This document shows positions 10,956 through 34,879 of a stretch of DNA of 35,750 nt, piece by piece. The first letter of the stretch is position 1; each line of letters starts with the position of its first letter. Below the pieces are notes generated by a model. It did no database searches. It was not told the origin of the DNA and saw only the letters and a list, made by a program, of their open reading frames with translations. A program made the translations under genes and the position numbers. The stretch comes from Candidatus Gastranaerophilales bacterium (GTDB taxonomy: Bacteria; Cyanobacteriota; Vampirovibrionia; Gastranaerophilales; Gastranaerophilaceae): NCBI GenBank assembly GCA_944325675.1, contig CALVAZ010000045.1, forward strand, positions 1 to 35,750, in the 5' to 3' direction.

Positions 10956-11972
10956 CTAATCACCTAGGCAAACCGCCTGTAGAAGGCTATTGCCGCGGAT
11001 GTAGTAGTTCCAACTCGTATAGGTAGAGATGAAGCAGCGGGTGGACGCGCCGTTGCTGCTATACTCCTCACCGGACCAAACGGAAAAGGATGAGCCTGTG
11101 AAGCCTAATTCCGCTGCCTTATCACGGTCAAGGGTTAAATTGAATACATTTTCTTTAGCACCTATGCCTGATGTGTTATAAACATAGTTTGCTATTTCTG
11201 CAACCTGTGCCATTGTCGGCATCTTACTGACACCGCCGCAGGCTTTTACAGCTCCGGCCCAGTAGTCATCATCATAATAACATCTTTTAATCCCAAGGCT
11301 ATCTTTTTCAGCTTCACATTCAGCCTTAGTAAGTGGAGTTGGGGTAAATGGTGCACCAAAACAAGACCCGCCAAGTTCAAATGCACAATTTCTACCTAAT
11401 TTTGAAACATTGATACTTCTCAAATCTTTACCTGAAGTGTTAGGAGTTTTAAAGCCATCTGTATCATAAAGCATGGCAAGACAAGAGGTTCCAGTAATTT
11501 GATTAGAATAAGGATTTTGTTTACAATCAGGATTGTAGGCAATAAGACCTGTTGTTCCATTTGCAAGTTGCACACCAATAATATCAGTATCCCAATCATC
11601 TTGTCCAAAGTTTTTAGCTGTTTTGATTTTGGTCATGTCAACTTCTTCGCTACTCCAGATAACTTTATCTTCAAAACAAGACATCAAATCATCATTTTGA
11701 CAAATTTTTGTAATTTTAAAATGATTAGACAACTCATTAACAAAATCAAGAGTATTAGAATAACCTGCAAGAGTTTGTTGAGTATTCATGGCTTTAAGAG
11801 ATTCTTCAAGTTTTCTCTCAAAAACAGTAGCAGCAGTATCCCAGGCCCGTTGTTTGTAGTTAGAAACAAGTGTCGGAATAGTCAAAGCCGCAACAACACC
11901 GATAATACCTAATGTAATTAATACCTCTGCCAAAGTAAAAGCAAGAAACTTTCTAAAACCACAATTCATCAT
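10956..11972 (-). CDS. Type IV-like pseudopilin with lectin-like C-terminus; candidate phase-variable and DGR-diversified protein
   Basis: 338 residues from the ATG at 11972. The N-terminus MMNCGFRKFLAFTLAEVLITL... is a class III signal: FTLAE with Glu at mature position 5, then the ~20-residue hydrophobic pilin helix (after IIGVVAALTIPTLVSNYKQ). The C-terminal half (AVKACGGVSKMPTMAQVAEI ... FSVWSGEEYSS ... AVCLGD) resembles the C-type-lectin / formylglycine-enzyme-like fold of DGR target proteins. The last ~41 codons are far richer in GC and NNC codons than the rest. Start: TATAAT ends 6 bases before the ATG and there is no Shine-Dalgarno, so the message is probably leaderless. The frame stays open upstream as far as a 9-base C tract (12048-12040) and would join a tiny SD-led ORF if the tract gained one base. 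An exposed, variable surface or pilus-associated binding protein is the likely role (inference). Confidence 0.9.
   Translation of the reverse strand: MMNCGFRKFLAFTLAEVLITLGIIGVVAALTIPTLVSNYKQRAWDTAATVFERKLEESLKAMNTQQTLAGYSNTLDFVNELSNHFKITKICQNDDLMSCFEDKVIWSSEEVDMTKIKTAKNFGQDDWDTDIIGVQLANGTTGLIAYNPDCKQNPYSNQITGTSCLAMLYDTDGFKTPNTSGKDLRSINVSKLGRNCAFELGGSCFGAPFTPTPLTKAECEAEKDSLGIKRCYYDDDYWAGAVKACGGVSKMPTMAQVAEIANYVYNTSGIGAKENVFNLTLDRDKAAELGFTGSSFSVWSGEEYSSNGASTRCFISTYTSWNYYIRGNSLLQAVCLGD
10959..11081 (-). repeat. Candidate diversity-generating variable region (VR)
   Basis: The 41 codons before the stop, from VWSGEEYSS to the end, contain 20 codons ending in C (AGC, AGC, AAC, GGC, TCC, ACC, CGC, TGC, TTC, ATC, ACC, AAC, TAC, TAC, ATC, CGC, GGC, AGC and others) in a genome whose codons normally end in A or T. 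Adenine-directed mutagenesis of AAC/AAT template codons yields just such NNC runs. The WSGEEY...AVC frame fits the C-lectin scaffold in which DGR variable residues sit. No template repeat or reverse transcriptase is in this window, so the machinery would act in trans or be lost. Confidence 0.5.
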
Positions 11973-11978
11973 ACCAGA

Positions 11979-12007
11979 ATTATATTGATGATTTACGAAT
12001 TTGTCAA
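11979..12007 (-). promoter_or_regulatory. Perfect sigma-70 promoter of the lectin-like pseudopilin (inner promoter)
   Basis: TTGACA at 12007-12002, a 17-bp spacer and TATAAT at 11984-11979, all consensus on the minus strand. The -10 ends 6 bases before the ATG at 11972, which puts the expected transcription start at the A of the start codon. The whole promoter also reads as open coding sequence in the pilin frame. Confidence 0.8.
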
Positions 12008-12019
12008 GCTGACTAAAAC

Positions 12020-12085
12020 CTAAGATCCGAGCTCGAATCGGGGGGGGGCGACTATCTGAACCGCTTTTGTAGTAATCGTTTTCAT
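12020..12085 (-). CDS. Tiny SD-led leader ORF carrying a C9 tract (out-of-frame 5' extension of the pseudopilin)
   Basis: A 21-codon ORF, ATG at 12085-12083 and TAG at 12022-12020, encoding MKTITTKAVQIVAPPRFELG plus Ser. It has a full GGAGG Shine-Dalgarno (12095-12091) five bases before the ATG and its own promoter. The nine C of 12048-12040 form its APP codons. The ATG is 113 bases upstream of the pilin ATG, so it is out of frame as assembled; with ten C (or seven) it would read through without a stop into the pilin, adding about 38 residues ahead of MMNCGF. It is therefore best seen as the true translation start of a phase-variable long form, or alternatively a leader peptide. Confidence 0.6.
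   Translation of the reverse strand: MKTITTKAVQIVAPPRFELGS
12040..12048. repeat. Homopolymer tract G9 (C9 in the coding sense)
   Basis: Nine G on the plus strand in the context ATC-G9-CGACT. Such a run is very unlikely by chance in an AT-rich genome, and the same context (ATC-G9-CAACT) occurs at 30688-30704 before another pseudopilin. It is a candidate slipped-strand mispairing site. Confidence 0.85.
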
Positions 12086-12103
12086 ATAATCCTCCTTTTT
12101 TTT

Positions 12104-12132
12104 ATTAAATATTATTTTCCATATTTTGTCAA
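12104..12132 (-). promoter_or_regulatory. Outer promoter for the SD-led leader ORF
   Basis: TTGACA at 12132-12127, 17-bp spacer, TTTAAT at 12109-12104 (minus strand). Transcription from about 12097 would cover the GGAGG site and ATG at 12085. Confidence 0.65.
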
Positions 12133-12189: not shown

Positions 12190-12536
12190 AAAAATAAAGC
12201 AGTTCATAAGCCGTGTTCTGTTTCTAGATAATCATCTGTCTGGGATTGCGGTTACCCGCAAACTCTAGCGATATTTCCGAAGTGGGCGGACAGCCTTTAT
12301 AACCTTCGATTTAATCTTGCATTCGACCGGGGGTTGCCTAGCTAATACCTCTCGATATTACTGGTGAAGCTCTTAACTCACCGTTGCACCATCGCCTGTG
12401 ATTATGAATCCATCGGCAGTCTACATTTCTGTGGTCCTATCCACCGACTCACATCGTCCGGACTTTCTCCGGCGGTCTGTCCTTGAATGCACGGACTTTC
12501 CTCACATTTCTGCGCGATTATCCGGCTGCTTTATAA
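12190..12536 (-). ncRNA. rnpB: RNase P RNA, bacterial type A
   Basis: The catalytic RNA that removes the 5' leader of tRNA precursors. On the minus strand the conserved GAGGAAAGTCC appears at 12503-12493 and the ACAGAAA element at about 12430. The 3' end reads CAGAACACGGCTTATGAACTG. A perfect 9-bp P1 helix joins the ends: ATAAAGCAG at 12534-12526 with CTGCTTTAT at 12202-12194. Total length of about 345 bases fits type A. It sits between pseudopilin genes, immediately downstream of the stop at 12555, and is driven by its own extended -10 inside the end of that gene. Ends are set by the P1 helix and are accurate to a few bases. Confidence 0.95.
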
Positions 12537-30296: not shown

Positions 30297-30569
30297 ATGA
30301 ACAAAGAAGAATTAGTAAAAGAAGTATCAAAAAAAGCAAAAGTTTCTCAAAAAGCATCTGGTGATGTTATTGGTGCAACAATAGAAACAATTCAAAAAAC
30401 AGTTGCTAAAGGCAAAAAAGTAACATTAGTTGGCTTTGGTACTTTTGAACCACGTAAAAGAGCTGCTAGAACTGGTAGAAATCCACAAACTGGTGCAGTG
30501 TTGAAAATTGCTGCTAAAACAGTTCCTGCATTCTCAGCTGGTAAAAAATTCAAAGAACTTGTAAAATAG
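30297..30569 (+). CDS. hup: DNA-binding protein HU
   Basis: 90 residues, the usual size of HU. MNKEELVKEVSKKAKVSQKA is the N-terminal dimer helix pair. VTLVGFGTFEPRKRAARTGR is the family signature, and NPQTGAVLKIAAKTVPAFSA covers the end of the DNA-gripping arm. It compacts and bends DNA as a dimer. A strong AAGGAGG site, consensus-like promoter and GC-rich terminator fit high expression. One copy in this window. Confidence 0.96.
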   Translation: MNKEELVKEVSKKAKVSQKASGDVIGATIETIQKTVAKGKKVTLVGFGTFEPRKRAARTGRNPQTGAVLKIAAKTVPAFSAGKKFKELVK

Positions 30570-30619: not shown

Positions 30620-30648
30620 TTGCAAATTACTAAAAAATATGTTACAAT
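30620..30648 (+). promoter_or_regulatory. Outer promoter for the SD-led leader ORF of the second phase-variable pseudopilin
   Basis: TTGCAA (30620-30625), 17-bp spacer, TACAAT (30643-30648) with an extended-10 TG. Transcription from about 30655 covers GGAGG and the ATG at 30673. It begins directly at the end of the HU terminator. Confidence 0.7.
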
Positions 30649-30672
30649 TACCATAGCAAAGGAGGAAGGCAG

Positions 30673-30711
30673 ATGAAATTAGCAAACATCGGGGGGGGGC
30701 AACTCCTCTAA
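30673..30711 (+). CDS. Tiny SD-led leader ORF carrying a G9 tract (out-of-frame 5' extension of the pseudopilin)
   Basis: Twelve codons, MKLANIGGGQLL, ATG at 30673 and TAA at 30709-30711. AAAGGAGGAAGGCAG precedes the ATG, a full Shine-Dalgarno. The nine G (30691-30699) make its three Gly codons. The ATG is 92 bases before the pilin ATG at 30765, so it is out of frame by one; with ten G it would read GGG GCA ACT CCT onward with no stop into the pilin. The same layout occurs at 12085 on the minus strand. Confidence 0.6.
   Translation: MKLANIGGGQLL
30691..30699. repeat. Homopolymer tract G9
   Basis: Nine G in the context ATC-G9-CAACT, nearly the same 17 bases as at 12037-12053 (ATC-G9-CGACT). 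Candidate slipped-strand mispairing site ahead of a pseudopilin. Confidence 0.85.
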
Positions 30712-30729: not shown

Positions 30730-30758
30730 TTGACACTATGGTCAACAAAAACTATAAT
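30730..30758 (+). promoter_or_regulatory. Perfect sigma-70 promoter of the second phase-variable pseudopilin (inner promoter)
   Basis: TTGACA (30730-30735), 17-bp spacer, TATAAT (30753-30758), all consensus. The -10 ends 6 bases before the ATG at 30765, giving a leaderless message. The layout is identical to that at 12007-11979 before the other tract-bearing pseudopilin. Confidence 0.8.
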
Positions 30759-30764
30759 TTATAT

Positions 30765-31550
30765 ATGCTGATTTATAGATTCAAAAAAGGATTTACTTTA
30801 GCGGAAGTTTTGATAACTCTAGGTATTGTTGGTGTGGTTGCGGCAATTACTATACCGACGATATCTAAGAATATACAAAATGCTGTATTAAAGAACCAAT
30901 TCAAGAAGTTTTACAGCACGTTTTCTCAGGCAGTATTCGGTATACAAACAATGAGTGGTAGACCTGTAAAATGTCATTATTGGACTACACAAGGTAATCC
31001 ATATACTAATAATTGTACGTTTACATGTGCTGTAAAAAATGAATTTGGTGTATGTATAAGTCAACTTATTTGTGCCGAAACAGGATTGCCGATTCCTTCT
31101 GACTATAATGGCCCTATGAGTGAATGTGAAAAATTTCAAGAAGAATTATTCATTAATACACTAAAAACAGTCAAAATATGCAAAGATCATGCATATGAAC
31201 AGGGTTGCTTACCAAAGGATTTCAGGGGCGCAGATATAGTCAATTCTGAAATAAACCCCGATGTGGAGTATGACCCAAATGGTAATTTTTCGGACAACAA
31301 TGTAAAAAATAATTATCCAGTTTCAGTTTTATCTGATGGAATATACATAATAGCTTATCCTCGTGAAATTCCTATTTATGCCGTTGATATAAATGGTTTC
31401 AAAGGCCCTAATAAGTGGGGTTATGATATATTCTCATTCATACTTAGGGGCAATTTGAATAGAGGAATTTCTGATATAATTGGTTCAAATTATGCGATAG
31501 AAGAAGGTGGTAAGACCTTTGAGCAAATGTACAATGAGAGTTTTAAATAG
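30765..31550 (+). CDS. Type IV-like pseudopilin (FTLAE type), candidate phase-variable
   Basis: 261 residues from the ATG at 30765 (MLIYRFKKGFTLAEVLITLG). The processing site is G before FTLAE, followed by the pilin helix (IVGVVAAITIPTISKNIQNA). The globular part has about nine cysteines. It ends with a pseudopilin core motif (YAVDINGFKGPNKWGYDIFS) and no lectin-like tail. An in-frame ATG at 30738 would add nine residues but lies inside the promoter spacer and has no Shine-Dalgarno. The frame is open from 30765 back through the promoter to the G9 tract. Convergent with rsmD, with an 8-base overlap of the 3' ends. Confidence 0.9.
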   Translation: MLIYRFKKGFTLAEVLITLGIVGVVAAITIPTISKNIQNAVLKNQFKKFYSTFSQAVFGIQTMSGRPVKCHYWTTQGNPYTNNCTFTCAVKNEFGVCISQLICAETGLPIPSDYNGPMSECEKFQEELFINTLKTVKICKDHAYEQGCLPKDFRGADIVNSEINPDVEYDPNGNFSDNNVKNNYPVSVLSDGIYIIAYPREIPIYAVDINGFKGPNKWGYDIFSFILRGNLNRGISDIIGSNYAIEEGGKTFEQMYNESFK

Positions 31551-34806: not shown

Positions 34807-34850
34807 TAAAACCCCCTTTTATAAGAACCTATATATTCTCATTAATAGAT

Positions 34851-34879
34851 ATTATAAGTTACCAGAATAAATATGTCAA
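34851..34879 (-). promoter_or_regulatory. Perfect sigma-70 promoter of the FTLAE pseudopilin at 34108
   Basis: TTGACA (34879-34874), 17-bp spacer, TATAAT (34856-34851) on the minus strand. It lies in the 93-base gap to the divergent XRE regulator, which could act on it. Confidence 0.75.

Follow-up and report, generated by a model that had tools for sequence, protein, structure and literature searches.

Most known cases of phase variation through G/C runs come from pathogens (e.g., Neisseria, Haemophilus, Campylobacter, and Helicobacter). Here we analyse a stretch of 35,750 nucleotides (nt) from Candidatus Gastranaerophilales bacterium (assembly GCA_944325675.1, contig CALVAZ010000045.1), hereafter the window, in which two type IV prepilin genes, one on the minus strand (locus 1) and one on the plus strand (locus 2), carry a G/C tract and a full consensus promoter in the stretch that would be translated ahead of the pilin. 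In the closest described system, pilC1/pilC2 of Neisseria gonorrhoeae, poly-G slippage frameshifts a pilus gene and turns its expression ON or OFF (PMC5320596). For lic2A of Haemophilus influenzae, several initiation codons and a graded phase variation have been described, as far as the work is represented by its citation in PMC4235727. In the tpr genes and tp0126 of Treponema pallidum the poly-G run lies in or beside the promoter and acts on transcription (PMC7864442). Finally, type IV prepilins carry class III leaders, reported at 6–26 amino acids (aa), which are removed before the hydrophobic helix (PMC4471445).

The window loci resemble each of these systems in part. With pilC1/pilC2 they would share tract slippage and translational ON/OFF switching of a pilus gene, but those are two genes for which no consensus promoter and second start have been reported within the tract-dependent segment, whereas here the pilins themselves are concerned, at about 30 loci in a single genome. 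The likeness to lic2A, within what that citation conveys, is in having more than one start and a graded rather than all-or-none output, although there the alternative starts precede the repeat and are in different frames, and here the second start follows the tract and has a promoter to itself. Treponema pallidum also has a poly-G of about 9 near a promoter, as well as a redefined start with a cleavable signal (PMC7864442); in our case, however, the run is in coding sequence, 26–81 nt upstream of the inner -35. Known type IV prepilins with a class III signal peptide have in common with these loci the motif FTLAE after G or A, the hydrophobic N-terminal helix and a genomic prepilin peptidase (PMC4471445), and differ in that here an alternative leader of 37–69 aa is encoded together with tract and promoter. 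We found no paper in the open-access literature tying Melainabacteria or Gastranaerophilales to pilin phase variation, no description there of a promoter embedded in a phase-variable pilin or prepilin leader, and nothing relevant on alternative starts in phase variation; likewise, we have found no earlier description of a layout with a full promoter kept in coding sequence that is discarded after translation.

Each locus is probably, judging from the sequence, a type IV prepilin gene that is phase-variable and expressed by two routes. In the first, which depends on the tract, an upstream promoter and a strong Shine-Dalgarno (SD) start would open a leader open reading frame (ORF) running through the G/C tract, and slippage would either join this ORF to the pilin frame (ON, with the long leader) or end it early (OFF). 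In the second, independent of the tract, a sigma70-type promoter of consensus sequence, lying within the codons of the leader, would give a leaderless mRNA beginning at the pilin's own ATG, 6 nt past the -10, and thus a short leader, usually of 9 aa; in some classes an ATG at N9 or an SD-led ATG would take the place of the leaderless N6 start. Prepilin peptidase would cut both leaders at the same bond between G/A and F to yield one mature pilin, and the tract would set the amount of pilin, from basal to high. We infer such a low/high switch, rather than an OFF/ON one; both promoters would be active and the short form translated.

Read directly, both window loci have the same order of elements, namely SD, ATG, nine C or G, 32 (locus 1) or 30 nt (locus 2), TTGACA-N17-TATAAT, N6, ATG, and prepilin N-terminus (Table 1). 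The coordinates, distances and peptides that an earlier note on this DNA had given for the two promoters proved correct, and its proposal that the promoter is embedded in the ON-coding stretch and that a long SD-led and a short leaderless prepilin could result is supported. As assembled, both loci are OFF, with a stop after 21 codons in locus 1 and after 12 in locus 2. When a tract length of 10 or 7 is simulated the frame opens and the inner ATG falls within it, the translation reading through LDKFVNHQYNSGMMNCGFRKFLA (locus 1) or LDTMVNKNYNLYMLIYRFKKG (locus 2) directly into FTLAEV. Locus 2 has an additional in-frame ATG at 30738, within the promoter spacer, and a mechanical ORF caller begins the gene there. 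Its short prepilin matches N_methyl (PF07963, E 3.4e-6) and TIGR02532, and locus 1 was assigned by its motif and by weak GspG/ComGE matches, below the cut-off.

Table 1. Features of the two pilin loci in window coordinates (a slash marks the predicted cleavage site).
Feature	Locus	Position	Strand	Details	Basis
Upstream promoter-like site	1	12104..12132	-	TTGACA-N17-TTTAAT, before leader ORF	1 mismatch to consensus
SD for long-form start	1	12091..12097	-	AAGGAGG	sequence
Long-form ATG	1	12085	-		sequence
Leader ORF as assembled (C9)	1	12020..12085	-	MKTITTKAVQIVAPPRFELGS, then stop; OFF by one nucleotide	
C9 tract (G9 on + strand)	1	12040..12048	-	proposed slippage switch	sequence
Embedded promoter	1	11979..12007	-	TTGACA-N17-TATAAT (TTGACA 12007-12002, TATAAT 11984-11979)	sequence; family DNA-level constraint
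Short prepilin ORF	1	10956..11972	-	from inner ATG 11972 (N6 after -10); MMNCGFRKFLA/FTLAEVLITLGIIGVV..., 338 aa	
Predicted cleavage	1	11940	-	after Ala ending at this position	class III signal-peptide rule (PMC4471445)
Upstream promoter-like site	2	30620..30648	+	TTGCAA-N17-TACAAT	sequence; family statistic
SD for long-form start	2	30658..30665	+	AAAGGAGG	sequence
Long-form ATG	2	30673	+		sequence
Leader ORF as assembled (G9)	2	30673..30711	+	MKLANIGGGQLL, then stop; OFF by one nucleotide	
G9 tract	2	30691..30699	+	proposed slippage switch	sequence
Embedded promoter	2	30730..30758	+	TTGACA-N17-TATAAT (TTGACA 30730-30735, TATAAT 30753-30758)	sequence
Short prepilin ORF	2	30765..31550	+	from inner ATG 30765 (N6); MLIYRFKKG/FTLAEVLITLGIVGVV...	
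Predicted cleavage	2	30791	+	after Gly ending at this position	

The two loci belong to a large family. A search of the 1.47-Mb genome for TTGACA-N16..18-TATAAT-N4..8-ATG gave 20 matches, and the reversed control gave none, so the promoter-plus-ATG layout is not due to chance, and about 16 of the 20 sit before prepilin genes with an upstream G or C run. With a profile of leader and pilin N-terminus, 72 prepilin-like starts were detected in the genome, about 30 of them with the leader module. For the family statistics given below we parsed 123 tract-bearing prepilin loci from 13 genomes, including 29 from the genome of the window. The reading frame in these loci speaks for translation of the leader. 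The pilin frame, on whose conservation the earlier note had made its proposal depend, is free of stops from the tract to the inner start in all 123, while the two other frames have at least one stop in 123 and 121 of them. An SD-like sequence (at least 4/6 matches to AGGAGG) precedes the leader start in all 123, and a promoter-like site with up to three mismatches is found upstream of it in 81% of 121 loci, compared to 23% in shuffles. With an open frame, an SD-like sequence and an upstream promoter-like site all present, translation of the leader most likely continues across the tract.

The embedded promoter has its own signature in the codons. In the ON frame the -35 is read as xTT-GAC-Axx and the -10 as TAT-AAT. 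In a set of 115 distinct sequences, 98 of the 102 Asp codons beneath the -35 are GAC, whereas pilin bodies use GAC for 19% of their Asp (a p-value is overstated here, the loci being paralogs, but GAC dominates in nearly every genome taken singly). The codon preceding this Asp is TTT, CTT, GTT or ATT in 108 of the 115, the residue (L/F/I/V) varying while TT stays constant. Three codons further on Asp is encoded by GAT 12 times and by GAC 8 times, and third bases nearby within the spacer are near background. The spacer measures 17 in 113 of 114 loci, although three-base indels would leave the coding frame unharmed, and the -10 is TATAAT in 104 of 114. The leaders of three other genomes (G005, G007 and G002) have little in common with those of the window beyond hexamers and tract. 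By these codon and spacing patterns, the inner promoter is constrained at the DNA level and not only as coding sequence. The Val-Asn shared by the two window leaders, which the earlier note had taken as a hint of protein-level constraint, is a weak one, the conserved L/F/I/V-D and Y-N lying under the hexamers and following the DNA-level constraint. We also considered the hexamers as a by-product of a conserved peptide and rejected this explanation, codon choice being far from background and the residue before Asp changing while TT stays. In one genome (G011, L207-L225), most loci pair a -35 TTGACC with TGC before TATAAT, resembling an extended -10, a possible compensation.

The start behind this promoter is retained in 113 of the 123 loci. 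A start codon at N6 after the -10 (ATG, or GTG/TTG) is found in 90 loci and one at N9 in others (ATG in 12, GTG in two, L194 and L290), and nine loci without the N6 ATG have an SD-led ATG about 25–33 bases after the -10. The features of a leaderless sigma70-type gene are present at the loci: consensus -35 and -10, a spacer of 17, a start about 6 nt past the -10, and no SD. Outside the pilins, four species of the family have TTGACA-N17-TATAAT-N6-ATG in front of hisS (G000:C102 = L276, L269, L270, L271), and the same promoter-N6-ATG layout precedes a MarR-like gene, both gene names being assigned by reading the sequences. Because of this use outside pilins, it is very probably a leaderless promoter of the lineage, and the hisS layout provides a handy housekeeping control for leaderless starts. 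Promoter decay is commoner in loci without an inner start (Fisher p 0.0003), and this association fits promoter and inner start functioning together. A 2x2 test of tract and inner promoter as mutually covering routes is partly circular, the loci having been found through these features. In a single locus (L199, from G015) the G run has been lost (GGAAGACAATTC...), yet the promoter is perfect and the ATG intact. The same promoter and N6 ATG are also found at three tract-less prepilins with stop codons upstream (L004, L204 and L230).

Several points weigh against two routes at every locus. Ten loci have no inner start, six of these with a decayed promoter, so the leaderless route is not obligatory, and all counts come from paralogs and are hence non-independent. 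The ten loci, together with the non-coding context of the promoter at L004, L204 and L230, could be accommodated by a translational phase variation of the simple ON/OFF kind, in which the embedded promoter is the relic of an ancestral leaderless pilin gene that gained an SD-ATG-tract cassette and is no longer relevant. We consider this unlikely, since the promoter is maintained at about 90% of the loci, across many species, in spite of the codon bias described above, the spacer hardly departs from 17 while the surrounding leader peptide diverges, and a lost N6 ATG is usually replaced by an N9 or SD-led start.

Further points against concern the tract. Its lengths go from 6 to 12 (one locus with 6), always as a G/C run within the 5' coding sequence after the SD-led start, and they represent one consensus assembly per species. 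A MutS-family gene in the genome could slow slippage. As assembled, 97 of the 123 loci are OFF one nt short, 17 are ON and 9 are OFF one nt over; the 97 among 106 OFF loci are an excess that neutral slippage does not predict, and the one-nt-short setting is retained even where the local phase differs, tract length compensating (G10 in G005, a C9/C10 pair in G021). Such an excess would be expected if the run caused a programmed -1 frameshift of the ribosome, or slippage during transcription, and the one-nt-short form were the working state, with a fixed fraction of long prepilin. Of this we are more doubtful still. Tract length and frame differ among orthologs and near-identical paralogs: G002:C3 (G12, ON) and G009:C107 (G11, OFF) have near-identical flanks; G002:C1, G008:C5 and G009:C61 carry G11, AG10 and AG9A, the first two sharing a frame and the third two bases shorter; and the paralogs L024 and L025, near-identical downstream, have tracts of G9 and G8. 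These differences, seen between species and between paralogs, match what slippage predicts at the level of assembled sequences. Moreover, a subclass of 11 loci with longer runs has both OFF frames equally (5 one nt short, 5 over, 1 ON), 17 loci are ON, runs up to 12 exceed the need of a slippery heptamer, and no conserved stimulatory fold was found around SD, tract and stop (family mean z -0.25 over the 123 loci). The excess may instead stem from selection for being low by default, with a single insertion leading to the high state, an explanation that we favour over programmed frameshifting because orthologs shift frame, both OFF frames occur in the longer-run subclass and the fold is unconserved.

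RNA structure as a switch or frameshift stimulator was rejected on the same family mean, not being general; taken singly, locus 2 has a z of -2.33 and locus 1 of 0.31. In several G-tract loci, the run followed by GCAA or GCGA and CUCCU can pair as a hairpin (window 30691-30710, plus strand), a pairing found neither in the C-tract class nor family-wide.

The last point against is that the long form may not be processed, as its leader exceeds the reported range of 6–26 aa, into which the short leader, usually of 9 aa, does fall. From this length (longer than known class III leaders, PMC4471445) one could argue that the long prepilin counts as a separate product, with poor processing or another targeting, and that ON therefore alters pilus assembly and not pilin amount, but this seems very improbable: the cleavage motif is intact in every family locus, and leader peptides diverge between classes except beneath the promoter, suggesting no leader function. 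The genome has one prepilin peptidase match (Peptidase_A24, PF01478, at C75), and precursors of both routes share one cleavage site, so the mature pilin is predicted to be identical. The two pilin isoforms of the earlier note thus hold for the precursors but not for the mature pilin. The remaining idea of that note, that tract length tunes the inner promoter by setting its distance from an upstream factor, in the manner of nadA in meningococci, is the least credible of all, for although the main class hardly departs from 30 nt between tract and -35, this distance spans 26–81 nt between classes having the same promoter, the frame relation being kept, and there would be no need for SD, start and open frame to be conserved.

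The two-route interpretation with one shared mature product would apply to a diverse set of pilins. The mature parts of 27 pilins in the genome have a median identity of 64% over the first 40 residues and only 20% over the remainder, the latter indicating a repertoire rather than copies. The nearest named records are Candidatus Gastranaerophilales metagenome-assembled genomes, and genomes of the same genus carry the module in like numbers (e.g., 38 strong matches in G011 and 25 in G015). Within the genus, 10 of 16 genomes contain the exact pattern, and all 272 genomes examined from the family's remaining genera lack it. On this count a spread of the module outside the genus was rejected, though G021, of another genus, has a diverged C-tract form.

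Some particular loci of the family deserve mention. Many module loci are found at contig ends (L024, L040, L217, L218, L226 and others), so assemblies probably break at the repeated leader, and the real number of copies may exceed our counts. L190 and L191 (G015) are identical from the tract through the pilin N-terminus and have quite different upstream leaders, which suggests recombination or gene conversion ending near the tract. L281 (G009:C34) and L288 (G012:C13) are prepilins with a tandem double FTLAE motif and a repeat-like upstream stretch. In the window, an RNase P class A RNA (RF00010, 217.6 bits, 12191-12533, minus strand) is directly upstream of locus 1, and an HU-type DNA-binding gene (30297-30569) precedes locus 2. 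A further, tract-less prepilin region (34840-34879, minus strand) has TTGACA-N17-TATAAT with an ATG at N8 and a stop seven codons later.

Since the leader is discarded, the codons upstream of the cleavage site would be free to carry both promoter and tract, and a disposable leader is a possible explanation for a regulatory element residing in a coding stretch. There is also a consequence for annotation, as the switch will be overlooked by gene callers, which will set the start of such genes at the inner ATG or at a spurious one. Slippage presumably occurs within populations, and both precursors are presumably processed. This would be a large systematic case of phase variation in uncultured gut relatives of cyanobacteria. 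It makes testable a phase variation that sets levels, basal or high, across some 30 pilins. More tentatively, with the chances somewhat short of even, a genus-wide pilin repertoire (up to about 30–40 loci per genome) may be run by a dual-coded disposable leader, in which a phase-variable frame and a complete leaderless promoter occupy one stretch, and basal/high switching would leave cells with combinatorial mixtures of pilins.
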